Virus record (IMG/VR): IMGVR_UViG_3300005613_000433
Span: 1-22,624 of that record
DNA from: a virus
Reading direction: 5' to 3' (one strand)
Length of the DNA stretch: 22,624 nucleotides
Positions 5,358-16,732 of the stretch are shown piece after piece; positions within the stretch are counted from its first letter, which is position 1; each line of letters opens with the position of its first letter. The position numbers and the translations under genes were made by a program. Under the pieces are notes generated by a model. That model had not been told where the DNA came from. It did not search any database and worked only from the letters and a program-made list of their open reading frames with translations.

Positions 5358-6641
5358 TTAAAATCCTGTTTTCTTTCCAAAAGAATCTCTTACGAGTGAA
5401 AGTTTTGTAAATGTATCTCTTGGAGTAACTCTATGACATACACTTGCTACCATATATATACCTCCTGTTTGTTTGTTTGGATCTATTTGCTTCTTACCTT
5501 CGACATGTGCAAACTCACAATAAATTAAATCACCTGCTTTGATACTAAAGTCGGCATCAAGTGTAACAACAATTTTGATAGAGAACATTTGATTGTATCT
5601 CATCAATGGTTGAACCAGAGCATTTTCTGCATCAAAATTGGGAGACTTAGGACTTTGTTTCCAATTTTCTAACTGAGCATTTCCAACACCATTTGGCATT
5701 GTTCCTACATCAAACACATGACTCATCAATCGAGTGGGTGATTCTGTGAATTCTTTTGCAACTTGTTCTCCACCAAAATATTTTCCAGACTTACCAAGTT
5801 CCTTTTCTCTATACTTATATTCTGTTACAAAATAATTCATCGAAAAGAAATCAAAATAGATTGATCTATTATGATAAGTTCCTAAAGTCATATTCTGTTT
5901 TAGATCAATATCTTCATCAAGTGCAACGTCTAAAATGTTAGCATCAAATCCTTCAGGAGTAAGTCCTGTGTTGTTAAAGACATATTTCTTAGTTGGTTCT
6001 TGTTCAAAGAGTGAATCAATTGATCTAAAATTAAATCCATCTCTCGTTTGATAAAACAAATATCCTGCTCTAGATCCAATATTTTCATCTGGAACTGCTT
6101 TAGATGCTAACCAAGTACAAGTATAAAATGGTTTTCTATCATTACCAATAAAATTATATGTTGAAGATGTTGGATCTATTTTTTCTATTTTTCCGTTGAT
6201 AGATCTAATAATTTTTTCAACGTGATCAGATATTCTTCCTTCATATCTTTCGATCACTCTTTGTTGTTCGTTTGCAAAAAATTCTTTTGACGCAAAATCT
6301 AAAAAATAAACTTCTTTTGATGTACCAGGATCACCATTTTTAACTCTGTTCACATACAATCCATCAGACGTGAACTGTAATTTATTTCCATTATTATCTT
6401 CTACAATAATATCAGTTCTTTCCCCACCACGAATTGGAAGTTCATCTAATACAGACTTAGCTGGACCAGAAGTATCATAACCACTATCAACAATGACTGC
6501 TGACGCAGTCAAGTTATTTGATAAAACACTTTCATAATATTTAAATTCTGAAATTGCACCAGACAAATCCTTTGCACCACCTCCTTTATTAGAAGAGATT
6601 ACAAACTTAGCAATATTTGCTGGTAAAATTGGTCCTGCCAT
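5358..6641 (-). CDS. gp27-like baseplate hub protein
   Basis: The 427-aa protein begins with a beta domain (residues 1-110, with KYYESVLSNNLTASAVIVD and IVEDNNGNKLQF), like the tail-tube-type domains of T4 gp27. It ends with SIKAGDLIYCEFAHVEGK followed by GGIYMVASVCHRVTPRDTFTKLSLVRD. This mirrors the end of T4 gp27 (PGVKIIFND, then FYVDEVIHELS-NNSVTHLYMF). The middle (150-330) contains alpha/beta sequence with many aromatic residues. The family forms the trimeric ring that links gp5 to the tail tube. Its start overlaps the stop of the 921-aa gene by one base (TAATG) and gp5 follows six bases after its stop, as expected for hub partners. Similarity to T4 is recognised by eye from pattern, not high identity, so the assignment is good but not certain. 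Confidence 0.7.
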   Translation of the reverse strand: MAGPILPANIAKFVISSNKGGGAKDLSGAISEFKYYESVLSNNLTASAVIVDSGYDTSGPAKSVLDELPIRGGERTDIIVEDNNGNKLQFTSDGLYVNRVKNGDPGTSKEVYFLDFASKEFFANEQQRVIERYEGRISDHVEKIIRSINGKIEKIDPTSSTYNFIGNDRKPFYTCTWLASKAVPDENIGSRAGYLFYQTRDGFNFRSIDSLFEQEPTKKYVFNNTGLTPEGFDANILDVALDEDIDLKQNMTLGTYHNRSIYFDFFSMNYFVTEYKYREKELGKSGKYFGGEQVAKEFTESPTRLMSHVFDVGTMPNGVGNAQLENWKQSPKSPNFDAENALVQPLMRYNQMFSIKIVVTLDADFSIKAGDLIYCEFAHVEGKKQIDPNKQTGGIYMVASVCHRVTPRDTFTKLSLVRDSFGKKTGF

Positions 6642-9406
6642 TATCCCTGTTTATATAAGAATCCCAAAAGTTGAGACTTGTAGTAACTATTTAATACTGC
6701 TTGAGTACTGGATCCCATGATCATAGATCCAGATGATCCACCTCCACCTCCACGCATTTGTCCTCCACCAACAGGAACCATTATTACATTATTACCACCT
6801 TGTCTTTGATCATAAGGTGCTTGTCTTTGAATATCAGTATATTGTCTTTCTACAGGTTGTGATATGACTTGACCTGTTACTGATTTCGATTCACCTGATG
6901 GTGCAGAACTACTCAAGATAAGATAACCAATATAAGGAGAAGGATCTCCCATTCCACCATATCTTGCACTACCTTTGATATTATCAACTTCAAAGTGTAG
7001 ATGTGGTCCAGTCGAAGATCCAGATCCCTTATCACCTTTGGCACCACCTGTGATACCAAGTGGAACACCTGCAGGAACCTTTTGACCTTGTGATACTAAT
7101 CTTTTACTTAAGTGTGCAAGTCTAAATTGAACCCCTAAAGATGGTGCCCAAGCGTCAATCACATTACCATATCCCGATCCTGTACCACCTTGCATTGTTG
7201 AATAAAGAATCTCAACATCAACTGATAATGCAACATATGTTCCAACAGGAGTTCCAACATCGATACCTCCATGTGTACCTCCCCATCTTTTACCATAACC
7301 TGAAGTAACAGGGAAACCACTAATAGTATCTCCCTTCTTACCACCTGTTGTTTTACCCATCTTCTCGATAATACCAGAAGTACTTTGAGGGGGAGGAGTA
7401 GTAACTTGGGCAGGTTGTGGTGTTGATTGTGAGGGTATTTGTTGTGGTGTTGATTGTCTTGGAGTACCTACGTATTGAGATAAATTTTTCTTTAAAGCAT
7501 CAGTAAATTTAGTTCCCTTTGTTCCAAATCCATCTTCAGTATCAGCAACACCTGTCTTTAACCAATTTCTTGCATTTGCCCATCCTTGATTATGAGCATA
7601 ACCAAGATACTGCATTCTTTGTATAGTACCAGCATTTGAATACTTGGGACTTCCTTTCATCAAATAAGTATGATTAGCATAAGTATAAGCCAAGAACATT
7701 TTTTCTTGAAGTTCGGGATTGGCTCTAAATTCTGATCGCGAAGGTATTGAAATACCTAATATTCTAGCAGCATCAGCTTTTGCTGCAGCACCCATCTGAT
7801 ATCTTCCATCATATCTGTCACCACTACCACCAATAGCACCATAAGAACCTGATTTTGAATATCCAGAAGTTTCAATGGAAGCAATTGTATCTGTGTATGT
7901 TTTCCAGACCTGACCATCAATACCTAATTTTGAAAGAAGAGGATCACTTCCACTTGGAGTTGAAGGGGAACCAGGAATATATGAAGGAGTTTCTTGACCA
8001 GGTTGATAGTCAGGCATAGAAGCTCCTCCTTCTGGAGGAGTCCATGATTCATCAACCCCAAATATATTTCTCCATGTCATACTATCATTAACGGCAGTTT
8101 CTCCAATGTTAACTTGACCTAAATTCTTTTTAAAATCTTGATACATACTTTTCGCAATAGAGTCTCCAACCATTGAACCAAGAATACCTCCAATAATCTT
8201 TCCTGCTCCAGCACCTATCAAATTACCAGCAATAGGAACTACAGAACCTACAGCAAATCCAAGAGCTCCACCAGCAATTGACCCAAGAGCTCCACCAATA
8301 AGACCTCCAACAGCTCCCACAACTGCACTATCTAATGGTTCTCCTAAAACCAGATCAATAACTAAAGAAATCAGACTTCCAATAACTGGAGCTCTTTTAA
8401 ATACATTTCTAAATTTTGAGAGTCTTTTTACTCCTGTTTGACCAAATATTTTACTAGCTGACTTTGGTGGTGTTGTTGGTGCTGATCCTAATGGTTTTGG
8501 TTTTGGTGGAACCTTTGCTCCGCCACGAGCTGCAGCTTGTCCAGCACCAGTAGCTGCAGTACTTGCAGCACCTCGGGTTGCGATGTTTTTTGAGGACTTT
8601 ACAATATTTTTAACAGTATTTACAATTGAAGAACCTAATTTTTTAAATGTACGAGTCAATTTTGGAGTGATCTTTTTAACAAGATTTTTAATTCCATTTC
8701 CACTCTTCTTTAGTACATTAAATGCTCCCTTAAAGAAAGATTGTATGGGGTTTCCAAACGCTATACTAATACCTTGAATCACTGATCTCATCAGTTTAAA
8801 GGGATTCTCAAAATTTTCTTTCAGTGTTTTGAATAAATCCTGTATTTTATCAACATTATTCAACAAAAATACTACGAGTGATCCAAGTAAAATATTTGCA
8901 AAGAAATCAAATATAGAACTTCCTGCCTTAGATGATAATCCTATTCCAGGTATACTAATTTTCTTTCCTTTTGACTCAAGTCCTCTTTCTCTTTCATCAG
9001 CTTTTTGTTTATCTCTTCTTCTTTCTAAAGTATCTTGTTTATCTTTTTCCACATCAAGTTCAGACTCAGAAACTTTCACCATAGAATCAGTAGTTTCTTT
9101 TATTTTATCAAGAGTTTGACTTACAGATTCAAAACTTGTTTTTCCACTTGTTTCAATTTTTTTATTTGATGGTTTGTAAGTTGGTATTTTAATACCAGAA
9201 ACCATTTTTTCTTTTGGAATAGACTCAGCAACTTTTGTATCATCACCTACTTGTTGATTTGGTCCATCTCCTTGTTCAATACCTGTACCAGACTTTTTAT
9301 ATTTTTTCTTACCAGTAACAAATCTTTTGGCTGCAGAAAACTTTCCTGTAGTTTTTTTAAGTGTTGTAAATCCTTTTACTAAGTTTCCTATTAATGGTAA
9401 TACCAT
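6641..9406 (-). CDS. Tail hub/tape-measure-like protein with muramidase-like and M23 peptidase domains
   Basis: The 921-aa protein, in order: a basic N-terminus (1-45); a charged coiled-coil-like stretch (95-148); a hydrophobic segment at 165-183 (FDFFANILLGSLVVFLL); an amphipathic Lys-rich region (185-275); an Ala/Gly/Pro linker; a glycine-zipper hydrophobic region (about 340-415); a lysozyme/transglycosylase-like domain (about 495-640) with candidate catalytic Glu512 in ASIETSGYS and YDGRYQMG downstream; a Pro/Gln linker; and a complete M23 endopeptidase (about 695-830) with His712-x3-Asp716, His765 and His802-x-His804, the full set of zinc and catalytic positions. A Gly-rich tail ends in a hydrophobic peptide. 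It would cut glycan strands and cross-links during injection and may line or span the membrane. It shares the 165-183 segment with the upstream 891-aa protein. A lysis role is less likely given its place in the hub operon. Confidence 0.75.
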   Translation of the reverse strand: MVLPLIGNLVKGFTTLKKTTGKFSAAKRFVTGKKKYKKSGTGIEQGDGPNQQVGDDTKVAESIPKEKMVSGIKIPTYKPSNKKIETSGKTSFESVSQTLDKIKETTDSMVKVSESELDVEKDKQDTLERRRDKQKADERERGLESKGKKISIPGIGLSSKAGSSIFDFFANILLGSLVVFLLNNVDKIQDLFKTLKENFENPFKLMRSVIQGISIAFGNPIQSFFKGAFNVLKKSGNGIKNLVKKITPKLTRTFKKLGSSIVNTVKNIVKSSKNIATRGAASTAATGAGQAAARGGAKVPPKPKPLGSAPTTPPKSASKIFGQTGVKRLSKFRNVFKRAPVIGSLISLVIDLVLGEPLDSAVVGAVGGLIGGALGSIAGGALGFAVGSVVPIAGNLIGAGAGKIIGGILGSMVGDSIAKSMYQDFKKNLGQVNIGETAVNDSMTWRNIFGVDESWTPPEGGASMPDYQPGQETPSYIPGSPSTPSGSDPLLSKLGIDGQVWKTYTDTIASIETSGYSKSGSYGAIGGSGDRYDGRYQMGAAAKADAARILGISIPSRSEFRANPELQEKMFLAYTYANHTYLMKGSPKYSNAGTIQRMQYLGYAHNQGWANARNWLKTGVADTEDGFGTKGTKFTDALKKNLSQYVGTPRQSTPQQIPSQSTPQPAQVTTPPPQSTSGIIEKMGKTTGGKKGDTISGFPVTSGYGKRWGGTHGGIDVGTPVGTYVALSVDVEILYSTMQGGTGSGYGNVIDAWAPSLGVQFRLAHLSKRLVSQGQKVPAGVPLGITGGAKGDKGSGSSTGPHLHFEVDNIKGSARYGGMGDPSPYIGYLILSSSAPSGESKSVTGQVISQPVERQYTDIQRQAPYDQRQGGNNVIMVPVGGGQMRGGGGGSSGSMIMGSSTQAVLNSYYKSQLLGFLYKQG

Positions 9407-9412
9407 ACTAGA

Positions 9413-12088
9413 TTACCCCACAATATTATAAATTGACTTGACAACAATCAAATCAGCATTATTTAAATCTTCTGCAGAAAATCCTGGCGTTCTTCTTTGA
9501 GATGGTGATGCACCACTAGATGGTGCTCCTTGACCACCAGCCGGTAATGGTAAAACTGAAGTTTGTCCAGATGAAGAAGGTGTGCTTGGAGCTTTAGGAG
9601 GTGTTGTTTTTTGTAATGGAGAAATAGATGTAGAAGGAATTGAAGTTGGTGAAGGAAGAATTGGTGCAGGAGGTGGAACTTCCATTGCTCCTCCACCAGA
9701 TAAACCAGGAAGCATGGAATTCAAAACCTTACTTGCAAGATTCATTGATTCTTTTCCAACTGTCCCTTTCTTAACTTCTCCTAGAAATTGACCGATTGAA
9801 GGATCATCTATAGCTGCTACTTCCAAAATAGTACCACCAACAGCTGTAACTCCTTTTTCTTGAGGAGTTACTCCAGGATAGTTACCAAACACTGCAGCCA
9901 TTGATCTATCAACGGAAGATATTTTATTTCGATTTGGATTTAAAACTCCACCTCTTCCACCTCTTGCATCAAAATGTAAATCCACAAATTGAGTTCCTGA
10001 TTGTTTTTCTACATTACTTGGTATACCTTTGAGTCCTTTATATGATGTAATATTTTGAAATGATATTCTATCTCGATATGGAGAATTTGAAACAAGTTTT
10101 TTTAATGCCTTAACCAAATGACGAGTTGCTTCCCACTCATTAACTTTAGATCCATGTATGTCTTGTGTTCCTTGAACTGGTCTACCATCAGAACCTAAAG
10201 CAATACCTTTCATTGCATTTTCTTCTGACGGAGCATGACCTGCACCAATTACAAGTTTACCAACTTGTCCTCCTCCCTGAAAACCAGGAATCCTACCAAA
10301 TTTTGGTTTATTATTTCCACCTGCTGCAGCATTTGCAGCTAAAAGATTATCAGCTCCATAAGCATCAACTGCCTTTTTACTCATCATAATCTCGCCAGGT
10401 TGAGCTGCAATTAACTGAGTATCATTTCCTAAACCAGAAATTGTAATTCCAGAAGACCTATCAATCGCTCCACCTTTTTCAAAAGAAAGATTTTTAACAT
10501 TAATAACTGTTCCACCACCTTCTTGTTGTTGAAATCCTTTTTCAACAACCATTCCACCATCTTCTTGTTGTTGAATCCAATCTGGATATTTAATAGGATC
10601 AATAGGATCTATGGCTACAGGATCAATATCTGGTATATCTATTGGATCTATTCCTGGCAAAAATCTTGCTACTTGATTTACAGCAGATTCAATAGCATTA
10701 AATGCATCATTTAAACTTTTAATTACGGTATTAATTGGTAAAAGTATAACGTCATTTATGTATTTTATAATTTCATTTATAAAATCTATCATCTTATTAC
10801 CAAAATCAATCAACCCTTTCAAATATTTTCCAGGATTCTGAATGATATCTAATAATCTGACAACTGCTGAGCCAAGCAAAATATTTAAAAAGAAGTCGAT
10901 AATAGTGTCAATAATACTTTTAGCTGGAGCAATAACTTTTGCTATCCTATCTTTTGTTTTGGATTTATCTGATGCTCCTTCTAATTCTTTTTCTTTTTCT
11001 TTAAATGCTAGATTTTCTTGTCTTGTCTCTAGATCCTTAGCAGATTGTTTTTCTAAATCAAGTCTATCTTCATTTAACTCTAAGATTTTTTCAAGATTTT
11101 TTTCAATCTCAGTCAATGATGATGAAAGTGGTATAAGAACCTCTTGATTATTTTCATCAACTTCTGCTTTAATATCTTCAGATAAATTTTTTGTAGGTGG
11201 TACTAACTTTGATGCATCAACTTTAGTTGCTGTAGTCTTTGTTCTTTCTTCTCCAACAAAAGTTTCAGCCTTAATTTTTTTACCTCTTATTTTAAATCTG
11301 CCAGTTTTAGACTTAACTCTTTTAAATTCATTAGTTAATAACTCCACCTCTTCAGTAGGAATTTGACTATCTGCCATTCTTCCAGTAACTAGTCTTTCCC
11401 TGAGAAGAGTTTTATATGTAGAATAATCTATATCACTTAAATCAGTAAGACCTAATAAATCAAGAATACTTTGATCAATTTCTTCATCAACAAGATCTTC
11501 ATCTTTAGTACCTTCATACTTAACTAAAGCTGATATATTTTTTCCCGATTCTTGCTTATCTTCTTTTCGGATTTGGTCAAGTAAATCATCAAGACCTTTT
11601 GGAACTTCTTCTTCTTTAATATCATCAACTTCTTTCCGAATATCATTTAAAAGATCATCAAGACCTTTTGGAACTTCTTCCTTAACATCATCGACTTCTT
11701 TTTGAATATCTTTTAAAAGACCATCAAGACCTTCAGGTATTTTATCTGTATCTTCTTTAATTTCCTTAACTTCTTCTTGAATATCCTTAAGTAAGTCATC
11801 AAGACCTTCAGGTATTTTATCTTCCTTCTTAGTAAATTTTTTCTTATCAGCTTCTGAGACTGATGCTACTTCGCCATCAACAATACCCTGTGCCATTCCT
11901 CTGGCAACATCTAGAAAATCACCTCGACCTTGTACAAGATCACTATCAACTTTACTTTGTTCTTTTGGAGGAAGTGAATTATAGTATTGTGATAACTTTT
12001 TAATTTGAGCATCAGAAAGTTTGGATGCGAGATCCTTTCCGAGTTTATACTCGTAAGCTTTTCTTAGTGTTTTGGGATCTCTAGCCAT
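9413..12088 (-). CDS. Tape-measure/hub-like protein with amidase_3-like domain
   Basis: The 891-aa protein, in order: residues 1-90 helical; four tandem acidic repeats (91-180); a coiled-coil-like charged segment (325-380); a hydrophobic segment at 397-413 (IDFFLNILLGSAVVRLL) homologous to one in the 921-aa neighbour; an Asp/Ile/Pro-rich spacer (478-500); and TQLIAAQPGEIMMSKKAVDAYG at 557-578, a motif often seen near the ends of phage tape-measure proteins. A domain at about 610-770 has the amidase_3 pattern: His618 in VIGAGHAP, Glu651/653, His705 in VDLHFDA and Glu756 in ILEVAAID. That fits a zinc N-acetylmuramoyl-L-alanine amidase. A Pro/Ser linker leads to a short conserved-looking C-terminal peptide. 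It starts inside the end of the 56-aa ORF (8-base overlap). Tape measure, hub plug or both are possible; the amidase call rests on motif spacing only. Confidence 0.65.
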   Translation of the reverse strand: MARDPKTLRKAYEYKLGKDLASKLSDAQIKKLSQYYNSLPPKEQSKVDSDLVQGRGDFLDVARGMAQGIVDGEVASVSEADKKKFTKKEDKIPEGLDDLLKDIQEEVKEIKEDTDKIPEGLDGLLKDIQKEVDDVKEEVPKGLDDLLNDIRKEVDDIKEEEVPKGLDDLLDQIRKEDKQESGKNISALVKYEGTKDEDLVDEEIDQSILDLLGLTDLSDIDYSTYKTLLRERLVTGRMADSQIPTEEVELLTNEFKRVKSKTGRFKIRGKKIKAETFVGEERTKTTATKVDASKLVPPTKNLSEDIKAEVDENNQEVLIPLSSSLTEIEKNLEKILELNEDRLDLEKQSAKDLETRQENLAFKEKEKELEGASDKSKTKDRIAKVIAPAKSIIDTIIDFFLNILLGSAVVRLLDIIQNPGKYLKGLIDFGNKMIDFINEIIKYINDVILLPINTVIKSLNDAFNAIESAVNQVARFLPGIDPIDIPDIDPVAIDPIDPIKYPDWIQQQEDGGMVVEKGFQQQEGGGTVINVKNLSFEKGGAIDRSSGITISGLGNDTQLIAAQPGEIMMSKKAVDAYGADNLLAANAAAGGNNKPKFGRIPGFQGGGQVGKLVIGAGHAPSEENAMKGIALGSDGRPVQGTQDIHGSKVNEWEATRHLVKALKKLVSNSPYRDRISFQNITSYKGLKGIPSNVEKQSGTQFVDLHFDARGGRGGVLNPNRNKISSVDRSMAAVFGNYPGVTPQEKGVTAVGGTILEVAAIDDPSIGQFLGEVKKGTVGKESMNLASKVLNSMLPGLSGGGAMEVPPPAPILPSPTSIPSTSISPLQKTTPPKAPSTPSSSGQTSVLPLPAGGQGAPSSGASPSQRRTPGFSAEDLNNADLIVVKSIYNIVG
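11549..11818 (-). repeat. Four in-frame tandem repeats in the 891-aa protein
   Basis: Residues 91-180 contain four copies of a 19-25 residue unit with the pattern [IV]-P-[EK]-G-L-D-x-L-L-x-[DQ]-I-[QR]-[KE]-E. They start near residues 91, 116, 139 and 162. Copies one and two begin IPEG, copies three and four begin VPKG. The DNA is also repetitive, with near-identical blocks on the plus strand around 11590, 11660, 11725 and 11800. This points to recent duplication of an acidic amphipathic helix unit. Confidence 0.85.
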
Positions 12089-12251
12089 TCTGTTGTGCCT
12101 TAATCCTTTGCTCTTCTTCTTCTAAATGTTGCTTAAGTAATGTCACATAGATGTCTCTTTCCCAAGGCATCATATTTTCTATTTCAGTCAAAGAATATTT
12201 ATGGTATTGCATCAAGGCAAAATTTAAACGAAAATAATTTTCAAGATCCAT
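12081..12251 (-). CDS. Small tail-assembly-chaperone extension (GT-like), probable -1 frameshift product
   Basis: This 56-aa ORF fills the gap between the gp26-like gene and the 891-aa gene. It begins MDLENYFRLN, contains the helix-rich stretch YSLTEIENMMPWERDIYVTLL and ends in a charged Glu/Gln/Lys tail. The LTEIENMMPWERDIY pattern recalls small proteins encoded just before tape-measure genes in many myophages. The stop overlaps the next start by eight bases. A Shine-Dalgarno before its ATG is lacking. The same frame is open upstream through six codons to a T TTT TTC heptamer at 12269-12275 at the end of the gp26-like gene. It may therefore be made mainly as a C-terminal extension of that protein (about 300 aa in total). 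Independent initiation at ATG 12251 is the alternative. Confidence 0.7.
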   Translation of the reverse strand: MDLENYFRLNFALMQYHKYSLTEIENMMPWERDIYVTLLKQHLEEEEQRIKAQQNG

Positions 12252-12258
12252 ATGGATC
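12245..12258. repeat. 14-bp perfect palindrome downstream of the slippery site
   Basis: GATCCATATGGATC reads the same on both strands and could form a five-base-pair stem with an ATAT loop in RNA. It starts ten bases after the slippery heptamer on the minus strand and contains the ATG of the 56-aa ORF. It could act as a weak frameshift-stimulating or start-masking structure; it could also be chance. Confidence 0.45.
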
Positions 12259-12262
12259 AAGG

Positions 12263-12982
12263 CTATCCGAAAAAACTTGATAACCCTTCTAAGACTACTG
12301 TACTCTTAACTTTTGTAACTGGATTTGTAACTTCAACTGTATGTGAAAGTTTAGGCATAGTCTCAAAGAACTTTTCAATTTGTTTAAATTGAATAGAGTT
12401 CATCTGTTCTAAAAATTCTACAACTTCTTTCTTACTCACATCAGCAGTTGACCATACTTCTTCTTCACTATAAATCTTATCAATACATGTTGCAATGAGT
12501 TCAAAAGATCTATCAATATTACTTTCTTCATTAAAATCAAAATTATTTTTGATGAATTGATCTAATGATGGATATTTCATTTCCATCATCAAGTTATCAT
12601 CAAGTCGAATTTGTTTTTCGTGATCTTCATTCTCAACAACCTTAATTTCATCAAGGTCAATTTGAATCGGAATGGTTGTCTTCCCATCATCAGGAGCAAT
12701 AATACTAACTTCTACCTCTTCTCCTACTGATTTACCTCTGATGTTTAAAAAGAGATATTCAATATCAAAAGTTGGAAGTTCTTCGACTTTGACTCCCTTT
12801 GTAGAAATACAATTTTTGATAACAGTTTTAATTGCTGTTGTAATTTGTTTCGTATCTTCACTCTCTAATGCAAGAACAAGAAGTTTTTCCTCTTTGACAA
12901 GAAATGGTCTATATTTAATCGTTTGTTTTGTTGAAGGCAATTCCAACTCATACAGTGGAGTAGCAATCTTTGGTAAAGGCAT
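12263..12982 (-). CDS. gp26: gp26-like baseplate hub/tail assembly protein (T4 baseplate protein family)
   Basis: The 239-aa product starts MPLPKIATPLYELELPSTKQTIKYRPFLVKEEKLLVLALES, a hallmark of the gp26 baseplate-hub family of T4-like cyanophages. That N-terminus is followed by the conserved FDIEYLFLNIRGKSVGE near residues 72-88. Family members take part in hub assembly and, by gene position, resemble tail assembly chaperones. The C-terminal half is acidic and helical. The gene lies between gp4 and the hub genes. A late-promoter-like CATAAATA lies 29 bases upstream and an AGGA motif sits about 7 bases before ATG. The last codons carry a -1 slippery site, so a longer fused form is predicted. 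I am confident of the family; the chaperone role is inferred from the frameshift architecture. Confidence 0.85.
   Translation of the reverse strand: MPLPKIATPLYELELPSTKQTIKYRPFLVKEEKLLVLALESEDTKQITTAIKTVIKNCISTKGVKVEELPTFDIEYLFLNIRGKSVGEEVEVSIIAPDDGKTTIPIQIDLDEIKVVENEDHEKQIRLDDNLMMEMKYPSLDQFIKNNFDFNEESNIDRSFELIATCIDKIYSEEEVWSTADVSKKEVVEFLEQMNSIQFKQIEKFFETMPKLSHTVEVTNPVTKVKSTVVLEGLSSFFG
12269..12275 (-). promoter_or_regulatory. Programmed -1 frameshift slippery heptamer T TTT TTC
   Basis: In the gp26-like frame the end reads AGT TTT TTC GGA TAG. The heptamer T TTT TTC fits the X XXY YYZ rule for simultaneous slippage, two codons before the stop. After slipping back one base, the ribosome reads CGG ATA GCC TTG ATC CAT and then the ATG of the 56-aa ORF in frame, with no stop until 12081. 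The predicted fusion is 238 residues plus 6 linker residues plus 56. Confidence 0.65.
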
Positions 12983-13533: not shown

Positions 13534-14207
13534 TGCCCTCACCAACAGGTGGTCCAAAACCAAAACCATTTAAAACATCAGAAATAAAAAGTAGAATATT
13601 AAACATAGCAAAACCTACCATTTATATGGTCAGGTTACAACCACCAGTTGCAGTGACTAATTTTATTCAACAAAGAGGTATTAATTATCTGACTGTTGGT
13701 GAGGATATTGAATTGAGATGTTTCAGAACAAGTACTCCAGCCACTTCTTTTTTGACGCATGCTGTCAGTGCTGATTATCATGGTGTTGTAGAAGAGATAC
13801 CATATCGAAGAGGTTATGAGAATGAAATCAACATGTCTTTTTATGTTGATACAAACTACAATACAATAGAATTTTTTGAAGGATGGGTAGACTATATGAG
13901 TGGTCTTGGAATCACTGCACCAAGAGATTCATATTATTCTTCTCAGGCATTTTTCAGAATGAGTTACTATGATTCATATCGAGTTCCTATTTTTCTAACC
14001 AAGTTTGAAAAAGATATATCATATGAAAAAAATGTATTAGATACTGCTGATAGAAAGTCTCTTGAATATACTTTTATTGATGCTTATCCTAAAGCTATAA
14101 ATAGTATGGAATTGAGTTATGATTCTACTGAAGCACTCACTCTTGATGTGACATTTGGATATAGTAGATATGTAAGAAGAAGATTAAACGTCAAAAATCC
14201 AGAATAA
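13533..14207 (+). CDS. gp54: Tail-tube-family baseplate protein, gp54-like tube initiator
   Basis: The 224-aa protein has the tail-tube/gp54 pattern. Landmarks are FLTHAVSADYHGVVEEIPYRRGYENEINMSFYVD (residues 87-120), FFEGWVDYMSG (128-138) and LEYTFIDAYPKAINSMELSYDSTEALTLDVTFGYSRYV (181-218). The last segment matches the shared C-terminal strands of T4 gp19 and gp54, which carry the aromatic-Tyr-Pro turn and the final TFxYxRYV strand. gp54 seeds tube polymerisation on the baseplate together with gp48, which is encoded three genes downstream, so gp54 fits better than the bulk tube protein gp19. It is shorter than T4 gp54 (320 aa). No clear Shine-Dalgarno precedes the ATG. A gp19-like identity is the main alternative. 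Confidence 0.75.
   Translation: MPSPTGGPKPKPFKTSEIKSRILNIAKPTIYMVRLQPPVAVTNFIQQRGINYLTVGEDIELRCFRTSTPATSFLTHAVSADYHGVVEEIPYRRGYENEINMSFYVDTNYNTIEFFEGWVDYMSGLGITAPRDSYYSSQAFFRMSYYDSYRVPIFLTKFEKDISYEKNVLDTADRKSLEYTFIDAYPKAINSMELSYDSTEALTLDVTFGYSRYVRRRLNVKNPE
14096..14103 (+). promoter_or_regulatory. Late promoter octamer TATAAATA inside gp54
   Basis: This is a perfect TATAAATA preceded by GC, 103 bases upstream of the ATG at 14207 and inside the gp54 reading frame. It could give a shorter late transcript for the downstream baseplate genes. The coding sequence alone (K-A-I-N-S) also explains it. Confidence 0.4.
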
Positions 14208-14782
14208 TGAAGACCTTTCAGAAATTTTTAGCAGAAGCAGAAGCATCAACTTCTGATACTCAATCAGCAATATCTAGATCAGTATCTGGAGGAGGATCTG
14301 ACTATAGAAGAGTTGGATATGATCGAGGATTTAAAAAATTAGATTTGTTGAGATTGAGAAATATAAGACTTAAACAAAAAGGTAAAGATAAAGAAAAACA
14401 ATCTGATACTTCTTCTACAACAAGACCAGCACTTCCATATAGATATAAGGCAAAAGAAAAATCTGCAGTCGAGAAAGGTGGTCCACTTGCAAAGAGACCT
14501 CCTTCTCAAGAAAAATCAAGAGTAGTTCAAAGAACAAAAGAAATACAACAACCACCACAACATAAGCAAATTTCTGCCAGACCAGCATCAACAGCAATGG
14601 CTGGAAGTAGACAAAGACCAGCAATCAAACCTGCTAAGTCCAATCTCTCAAGAGATAATATGGGTGTTCAAAGGGTTAATGTCAGAGACGAAGGACCAAC
14701 TCAACAGAAACAACTATCTCCATCACAACAAAGACAACTACCTCAATCTCGTCAAAAACAATTAGCCCCTGCTAGATCTTGA
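14207..14782 (+). CDS. Basic, disordered baseplate-cluster protein with MKTFQKFLAEA N-terminus
   Basis: The 191-aa product begins MKTFQKFLAEAEA, an N-terminal pattern seen on a number of structural and head-associated proteins of T4-like phages. The rest is low complexity: Lys/Arg-rich (40-120), then Gln/Pro/Arg-rich to the end (QKQLSPSQQRQLPQSRQKQ). No folded domain, membrane segment or Cys is evident, and the charge is strongly positive. The ATG overlaps the gp54 stop by one base (TAATG). It sits among tube-initiation genes, so a scaffold, linker or nucleic-acid-binding virion role is possible, but I cannot assign one. The Gln/Lys/Arg composition is unlike that of the neighbours. Confidence 0.75.
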   Translation: MKTFQKFLAEAEASTSDTQSAISRSVSGGGSDYRRVGYDRGFKKLDLLRLRNIRLKQKGKDKEKQSDTSSTTRPALPYRYKAKEKSAVEKGGPLAKRPPSQEKSRVVQRTKEIQQPPQHKQISARPASTAMAGSRQRPAIKPAKSNLSRDNMGVQRVNVRDEGPTQQKQLSPSQQRQLPQSRQKQLAPARS

Positions 14783-15187: not shown

Positions 15188-16732
15188 ATGTCCATTAGAA
15201 CCTATCCTACTTTTCCAGATATTATCTTTACGGATGTAGTATGGAATGGTGTAGTTTTTGAAGAAAGGATTAATATAATTACTGGAGAAATTGGCATATA
15301 TCGTAAAACTTCAGGTAATAATATACCTAGTACAACATTAGAATCTTATACATATGCAAAAGATGATGTGTGGATAATTAGAGATCCTAATAATTTTTTA
15401 ATTAATTATAATAGAGGTAGACCACCTGGTCAAAATTTTATATCATATGATGAATTTGAAAAAATATTTTATACAGAAGGTATAGAACTTTTCAATAGAG
15501 ATCGAGCAACAATCTTAGAAGAATTTTCTACTGAATCAAATAAATTGCAATTTTTTGTAAATGGAATACCTGGAATACAAGATCCAAAAACAAAAAGATA
15601 TGTTAACCTCGATGGAACATATACCGATCAAAATCCGTTTGCTCAACAAGTAAATCCTAATGATGCGGATGACTCTGTATTTGGAAACCCATATGGAGAT
15701 GATATACAATTAACCACATACAGTGGAAATAATGGTAGTACATCTGGTTCTACAAACGGAAATGGATCACAATATAGTATAGGTTCAGTTGGTGCATCAC
15801 AGTATGAATCAAATAATCGGGTAGGAGATTTTTCTTCGACTAGTAACAGAAATGGTAATGGAGTTGGTAGTAGTGGACTTTTAAAATATCCTCTTCTTGA
15901 ACCACCCGCAGAATTTCAATATGATTATATTATGATTCAAGCATTTGATTATACTGAATCTGGATTAAAAAACAATAAAGATCCTCTTAAAAATTTGGGT
16001 GCTGCAAGAGAAATTACAATCTTACCCATGCAACCCAATATTTCTGAAACAAATGCTGTAAATTGGTCTGATGATCAGTTAAATCCTGTCAAAGCTGCTC
16101 TGGGCAATTTTGCATTCGAAACAATTGAAAGTCTTGGAGGAGATTATACTAAAATAGTTGATTCATTTAAACAAGGAATGAATGATTTTAAAGACATGTT
16201 AAATGCTCCAGGTATTAAATCATTTGCTGCTGCTTATTTCGCTGGACAGGCGGTAGGCTCAAATATTTTAGGAAGAAGTACAGGTATGGTTGTGAATCCA
16301 AATCTAGAACTTCTTTTTAATGGCCCAAATCTTAGAACATTTAATTTTAGTTTTAGATTTACACCAAGAAATAAAGAAGAAGCTGAAATGATTCGCTTAA
16401 TTATTCGAGCATTTAAGAGAAATAGTGCAGTAATTAGAGAGACAGGTTTTCTTTTCTTAAGATCACCTAGAGTGTTTAAACTACAATACATTTATAAAGG
16501 ATCACGTATTCCTGAAGGAGGAAAGGAAGATAGTTCAGATTTGCATCCATATCTAAATAAGATAAAACCGTGTGCATTAACAAGTTTTTCTGTAAATTAT
16601 ACACCAGATAATTCATATATGACATTTGAAAATGGTTCACTAACTTGTTATCAAGTAGATATGACTTTTAGTGAATTAATGCCTATCTATGAGGATGAAC
16701 TTCAAGGTTTTGAGCCAAATATGGGTTACTAA
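15188..16732 (+). CDS. gp48: Baseplate tail tube cap gp48
   Basis: The 514-aa protein carries the gp48 core in its C-terminal part. Landmarks are LRTFNFSFRFTPRNKEEAEMIRLIIRAFKRNSAV (about 377-410), FLFLRSPRVFKLQYIY, PCALTSFSVNYTPDNSYMTFENGSLTCYQVDMTFSELMPIYEDEL. This corresponds to the T4 gp48 segment with FRTFSLKFDFAPRN. gp48 caps the baseplate and, with gp54, starts the tail tube. A hydrophobic Gly/Ala-rich stretch (about 345-362) lies just before the core. T4 gp48 is 364 aa; the extra 150 or so residues are N-terminal and include an aromatic beta region (1-110) and a Ser/Gly/Asn linker (175-225). gp53 follows after two bases. The family assignment is firm; the role of the extension is unknown. 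Confidence 0.85.
   Translation: MSIRTYPTFPDIIFTDVVWNGVVFEERINIITGEIGIYRKTSGNNIPSTTLESYTYAKDDVWIIRDPNNFLINYNRGRPPGQNFISYDEFEKIFYTEGIELFNRDRATILEEFSTESNKLQFFVNGIPGIQDPKTKRYVNLDGTYTDQNPFAQQVNPNDADDSVFGNPYGDDIQLTTYSGNNGSTSGSTNGNGSQYSIGSVGASQYESNNRVGDFSSTSNRNGNGVGSSGLLKYPLLEPPAEFQYDYIMIQAFDYTESGLKNNKDPLKNLGAAREITILPMQPNISETNAVNWSDDQLNPVKAALGNFAFETIESLGGDYTKIVDSFKQGMNDFKDMLNAPGIKSFAAAYFAGQAVGSNILGRSTGMVVNPNLELLFNGPNLRTFNFSFRFTPRNKEEAEMIRLIIRAFKRNSAVIRETGFLFLRSPRVFKLQYIYKGSRIPEGGKEDSSDLHPYLNKIKPCALTSFSVNYTPDNSYMTFENGSLTCYQVDMTFSELMPIYEDELQGFEPNMGY

Follow-up and report, generated by a model that had tools for sequence, protein, structure and literature searches.

Results

A gp26-like gene continued by an open −1 frame

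The window analysed here is a stretch of DNA of 22,624 nucleotides from a marine T4-like virus (nt; IMG/VR record IMGVR_UViG_3300005613_000433, positions 1 to 22,624), and the subject of this study is a minus-strand locus in which an open reading frame (ORF) related to T4 gp26, hereafter the G ORF, is followed by a 56-amino-acid (aa) ORF in the −1 frame, hereafter part of the T frame. Its features are as follows (SD, Shine-Dalgarno; TAC, tail assembly chaperone).

12263..12982, minus: G ORF (TAC-N; gp26 or baseplate hub in the annotation of relatives), 239 aa under standard decoding
12284..12289, minus: SD-like GAAGGG, candidate 5′ stimulator, 8 nt upstream of the heptamer
12269..12275, minus: slippery heptamer T_TTT_TTC, phased for a tandem −1 slip
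12263..12265, minus: zero-frame stop TAG of the G ORF, read directly from the sequence
12081..12275, minus: −1 frame, heptamer to end of the T domain; 64 codons and a stop (12083-12081)
12249..12251, minus: ATG of the 56-aa ORF, not conserved in homologues
12245..12258, minus: hairpin GATCC-ATAT-GGATC, candidate 3′ stimulator, weak in the window, 10 nt downstream of the heptamer

The G ORF ends with GAA GGG TTA TCA AGT TTT TTC GGA TAG, a single sense codon, GGA, lying between the heptamer and the stop. The −1 frame begins F F R I A L I H M D L E and remains open through the ATG of the 56-aa ORF, with no stops in the linker. A −1 slip would add 62 residues past the shared Phe-Phe and yield a fusion of 238 + 62 = 300 aa, with the predicted junction peptide ...LEGLSSFFRIALIHMDLENYFR.... 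The initial annotation had reported the slippery site at the end of the gp26-like frame, the continuous −1 frame and a 300-aa fusion, and all three were exact. It had also stated that the 56-aa ORF lacks an SD sequence, and indeed no strong one was seen upstream of its ATG at 12251; a TTG at 12260 is also present in the T frame.

Conservation of the heptamer and of the −1 frame

A total of 271 usable loci were collected from the closest IMG/VR relatives and from five further scans seeded with diverse members, and were reduced to a non-redundant set of 138 loci (<85% identical). Among the closest IMG/VR relatives, the identical heptamer was found 10 nt before the stop in 80 of 80, an identity of both sequence and spacing that is not due to chance. 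In the full collection, T_TTT_TT(C/A/T) is located 7-13 nt before the G stop in 265 of the 271 loci, the linker is free of stops and the 260 complete −1 frames all span 50-69 codons; the comparison of homologues proposed in the initial annotation thus came out in its favour. The six loci without the heptamer comprise four from T-even phages (in which the gene is already fused), a broken HTVC008M-like contig (L275) and Vibrio phage K369.

Among 15 diverse isolates the signal was found in 14: P-SSM4, S-PM2, P-HM2, P-TIM68, S-PRM1, MA10, HTVC008M (SAR11), Melnitz-3 (Methylophilales), Ochrobactrum OC, Sinorhizobium phiM19, Stenotrophomonas BUCT608, Vibrio D490 and EniLVp02, and Aeromonas AS-szw. 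It is also present in Aeh1, Cronobacter S13, Citrobacter Ci1, nt-1, VmeM32 and S-SM1. Given this spread, the signal is neither marine-only nor Kyanoviridae-only, and includes Straboviridae outside the T-evens. The marine T4-like setting originally proposed therefore holds for the marine phages but is too narrow, as phages of Aeromonas, Cronobacter, Citrobacter, Vibrio, Stenotrophomonas, Sinorhizobium and Ochrobactrum share the arrangement.

Relationship of the two parts to T4 gp26 and gp51

In profile searches the G part of the window matched PF12322 (8.8e-73) and phrog_150 'baseplate hub' (2.8e-78), and the T part matched phrog_634 'baseplate hub assembly catalyst' (5.6e-30). The T part additionally matched the C-terminal region of phrog_150 (positions 241-281/282; 1.6e-5), a hint that some family members hold both parts in one protein. 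T4 provides such a case. In the same type of search T4 gp26 (208 aa) matched the G part only, while T4 gp51 (249 aa) matched phrog_150 over positions 13-280 plus phrog_634, and PF12322 was matched by both. Moreover, the C-terminus of T4 gp51 aligns with the T frame of the window across the junction (second alignment row: FFRIALIHMDLENYFRLNFALMQ). On these matches, T4 gp51 naturally joins G and T within one continuous ORF, and gp26 is its paralogue with G alone. The assignment of the two window products to a G component and a T domain, made in the initial annotation, is thus supported and can be refined: judged by profile, the pair is really better described as a T4 gp26-like protein plus the C-terminal part of T4 gp51.

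The AlphaFold2 model of the window G part reached a predicted local distance difference test (pLDDT) score of 85, and its order of structural elements is like that of a gp51 homologue, which carries additional C-terminal helices. When this fold was searched against the PDB with Foldseek, the highest probabilities listed were those of 3fgx, 2ob9 and 3klu (0.41, 0.25 and 0.23, respectively; E 0.8-3.7, non-significant), these being all three solved TACs, identified as TACs in PMC9603447. A PDB search by sequence profile returned no informative relative, and a fold search with the model of a T4-type gp51 returned no matches.

The number of PF12322 genes also differs between the two arrangements. 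One such gene was found in each frameshifting relative examined and in the window (a 22.6-kb fragment), whereas T4 and other T-evens harbour two, divergently oriented. Paired paralogues are a trait of the T-even arrangement and not of the PF12322 or phrog_150/634 family. In a tree of the G domain, gp51 and gp26 formed two long-branched groups and the root was arbitrary; on this tree either the frameshift or the two genes may be ancestral, and 26 and 51 may or may not be sisters.

Start codons and annotation of the T part

The T part could instead be a small gene in its own right ('gp51, baseplate hub assembly catalyst'), translated from its own ATG or by termination-reinitiation. The ATG and TTG of the window would permit this, separate coding sequences (CDSs) are given for the two frames in most of the GenBank records opened (none of which joins the frames), and in five of the 138 non-redundant loci a start codon (ATG or GTG) overlaps the G stop. 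However, the first nine codons after the heptamer contain no ATG in 60 of the 138 loci and none of ATG, GTG and TTG in 44, and the linker protein sequence FFRIALSHxSLENYY, which is upstream of any ATG, is kept despite the absent start codons. As those 44 loci have no start before the conserved T core, the 56-aa ORF is not solely self-initiated. An SD-like motif precedes only 12 of 91 T-frame ATGs, as compared with 78 of 136 G starts. Furthermore, an independent gene leaves both the fixed heptamer and the T4 gp51 fusion unexplained. Independent initiation was thus rejected as the general mode, since many homologues lack a start codon, and as an account of the family it is very unlikely.

The absence of start codons and of SD-like motifs at many loci also accounts for the erratic annotation of T, which is about 30 aa in P-HM2 and 45-47 aa in HTVC008M and Melnitz-3, and is missing from S-PRM1, AS-szw and Aeh1. 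In Aeh1 (L298, locus 598-1550), for example, an unannotated T domain is encoded in a 60-codon −1 frame after T_TTT_TTC; it has no start codon before codon 20, and was overlooked for that reason.

Candidate stimulators on both sides of the heptamer

Upstream of the heptamer, a conserved Glu-Gly (14-9 nt before it) is encoded in an unusual manner: Glu is GAG in 77 of 122 non-redundant loci (usage 0.30), and where it is GAA the following Gly codon is GGG in 19 of 45 (usage 0.07). Other Glu-Gly pairs within these genes carry no such bias and are mostly encoded by GAAGGA/T. The resulting GAGG or GAAGGG is a putative stimulator across the family, and its spacing resembles that of the dnaX stimulator.

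Downstream, the 51 nt after the heptamer were folded and compared with synonymous shuffles that preserve the T protein. The mean z was −2.38, with 64% of loci at p<=0.05, as against about −0.2 in control windows eight codons further on and −0.5 to −0.1 inside G; over all control windows, whether inside G or at least 8 codons beyond, z ranged from −0.5 to 0.1. Significant stems begin mostly 4-8 nt past the heptamer; their registers vary by clade and compensatory pairs were seen. In the clade of the window (60 loci) the mean z was −2.5, with covarying pairs in the register of the window hairpin. By this measure, a downstream stem-loop is selected beyond protein coding across the family, the window's own hairpin being weak.

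The combination is reminiscent of the E. coli dnaX cassette, which likewise has an SD-like element about 10 nt upstream, a homopolymeric heptamer and a 3′ stem-loop. It differs in that the heptamer here is T-rich, the product is lengthened by the frameshift and the stems are clade-specific. A very long stem of about 13-17 bp was observed soon after the heptamer in two loci of the S-PM2 group (L127 and L084); in L127, AAGTTTGTTTTATAATA pairs with TATTATAAAACAAACTT.

Codon choice at the slippery site

Within the non-redundant set the first Phe codon of the heptamer is TTT in 138 of 138 loci (usage 0.70), and the second is TTC in 118 of 123 (usage 0.30; p about 1e-54, a value that, like all codon-bias p-values here, ignores shared ancestry). 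Where the preceding residue is Ser its codon ends in T (108 of 108), and over all 138 loci the codon before the heptamer is always T-ending. The codons around the site show no such constraint. A run of exactly six T occurs in 133 of 138 loci.

These figures bear on two further explanations. In the first, the −1 frame would be reached by transcriptional slippage on the T run, the site being homopolymeric and extended to T7 or T8 in a few relatives. In bacteria, the A or T runs reported to cause such slippage are about nine long (PMC5009743), and since the run here is nearly always exactly six, it is unlikely to operate; the preference of the second Phe for TTC over TTT also runs counter to it, and both the selection on mRNA structure and the SD-like element implicate the ribosome. 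Taken together, we regard transcriptional slippage as extremely improbable. In HTVC008M (L097, near 16556-16563) and Melnitz-3 (L085, near 2687-2696) the site reads AGT TTT TTT TAA, with eight T running into the stop, and there transcriptional slippage is harder to exclude.

The second holds that no frameshifting takes place and that a conserved Ser-Phe-Phe or AT-rich codon usage gives rise to the heptamer incidentally. It is hardly credible: TTT is the usual Phe codon here and FF is a conserved motif, but chance and codon bias are ruled out by the codon statistics above, and the open −1 frame, which encodes a conserved protein, starts at the heptamer.

Neighbouring genes

Two large genes follow the chaperone locus.

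9413..12088, minus: 891-aa gene, tape-measure-like; ATG at 12088, the ORF overlapping the T stop
6641-9406, minus: 921-aa gene, likewise matching tape-measure-like PHROGs and containing an M23 peptidase domain

The 891-aa gene has weak PHROG tape measure matches (phrog_37649, 1.7e-4; phrog_4200, 0.012). The initial annotation had placed the 56-aa ORF directly before a tape-measure-like gene of 891 aa; the position is correct, the two overlapping at the T stop, and either of the large genes may be the tape measure. In many relatives a tail tube gene lies just upstream of the chaperone locus. In the window, a 191-aa low-complexity protein rich in Gln, Arg, Lys and Ser (14207-14782, plus strand) adjoins the tail tube gene.

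Discussion

A probable single chaperone gene decoded in two ways

The comparisons above indicate that the locus is very probably a single TAC gene decoded two ways by a −1 frameshift. Most ribosomes would stop at the TAG and release the 239-aa G-type chaperone (TAC-N, the equivalent of T4 gp26). A minority would slip back one base at T_TTT_TTC, with both Phe tRNAs re-pairing, aided by the upstream SD-like sequence and, in most relatives, by a stem-loop starting about 4-10 nt downstream; by adding 62 codons, these ribosomes would produce the 300-aa G-T protein (TAC-NC, the equivalent of T4 gp51). In T-evens, two paralogues take the place of the frameshift, 26 encoding G only and 51 encoding G and T in-frame.

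By analogy with lambda, the tape measure protein may be coated by many G and few G-T, the helical T part may bring in tail tube subunits, and both forms may depart before the tail is completed. The lambda proteins G and G-T both bind the tape measure, recruitment of the tube protein being the task of T (PMC5009743). In T4, gp26 and gp51 are listed as hub assembly chaperones, gp51 being required yet absent from the particle (Leiman et al. 2010; PMC3004832).

The sequences establish the heptamer and the open −1 frame, the conservation of both, the lack of start codons at many loci, the selection on RNA structure and the comparison of gp51 and copy number; slippage itself, how often it happens and the role of the products as chaperones are inferred. 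A literature search for cyanophage ribosome profiling yielded nothing usable. Several observations weigh against this scheme. The fold search gave no significant PDB match, similarity to known TACs staying below significance. The window's own hairpin is not significant (z −1.16, p 0.13), and both large genes after the chaperone, not one, have tape-measure-like matches. In the five loci where a start codon overlaps the G stop, reinitiation could supply extra free T. Finally, Vibrio phage K369 (L090, locus 2555-2752) retains a T-like domain in an open −1 frame without the heptamer, the site reading TCA CTT TTC AAG TAA. Reinitiation or a different signal may operate in this phage.

Comparison with known systems

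Lambda G/GT is the classic −1 frameshifted TAC pair and P2 E+E′ a related one; such pairs were reportedly described by Levin in 1993 and by Xu in 2004. The present locus shares with lambda G/GT a short ORF with a late slippery heptamer, a −1 extension into a small T ORF, the position before tape-measure-like genes and the predicted production of a short and a long form from one gene. It differs in its family (PF12322, not the lambda G family), in its slippery sequence (T_TTT_TTC) and in that the match to the TAC fold is only suggestive. As to T4 itself, the G domain is homologous in gp26 and gp51 and the C-terminus of gp51 is homologous to the T domain, but T-evens use two divergent paralogues without a frameshift, whereas the window would use one gene for both forms. 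Within another phage lineage, the TAC locus of Pakpunavirus Adele and the Vandenendeviridae has a conserved poly-T (GTTTTT) −1 site ending TAC-N (PMC12846349).

The initial annotation had held that such frameshifting is not well described in T4-like marine phages, an assessment that holds only in part. T4-like chaperones are the subject of Vladimirov, Gautam and Davidson (2022; Virology 566:9-15), as cited in PMC10885494 and PMC12846349, and according to the citing papers these authors identified short and long T4-like forms arising from separate genes or from poly-T sites. The PRFect paper states that 'some' T4-like phages have a short and a fused gene, and the Adele paper (PMC12846349) credits the 2022 work with poly-T slippery sites in the TAC-N genes of T4-like phages. 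Frameshifting in T4-like phages is thus probably not new in itself; the analysis of the stimulators and the explanation of the truncated or missing gp51 may be additions to prior work.

That explanation concerns two earlier reports. G-T frameshifting was reviewed as conserved 'except T4' (Atkins et al. 2016; PMC5009743). Among 26 T4-like genomes, cyanophage gp51 was found to be about 20% of the length of other gp51 proteins, cyanophage and marine vibriophage gp51 to be without about 200 N-terminal residues, and Aeh1 to be the only genome without gp51 (Sullivan et al. 2010; PMC3037559). The T4 exception, the short cyanophage gp51 and the gap in Aeh1 would all follow because the gp26-like ORF is itself the part that was missed, its link to T being the −1 frameshift.

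In the T4-like group as a whole, it is likely that a single-gene −1 frameshift with a three-part signal (SD-like element, T_TTT_TTC and a clade-shifting stem-loop) is widespread, that the 26/51 pair was derived by duplication, that an annotation artefact makes the gp51 of cyanophages and Aeh1 look truncated or absent, and that the stem changes position between clades without losing its effect. Hundreds of phage records would then have their annotation corrected, and the RNA signal is amenable to a simple reporter assay. Frameshifting phages and T-evens would have met the same need for two products by two genetic solutions.

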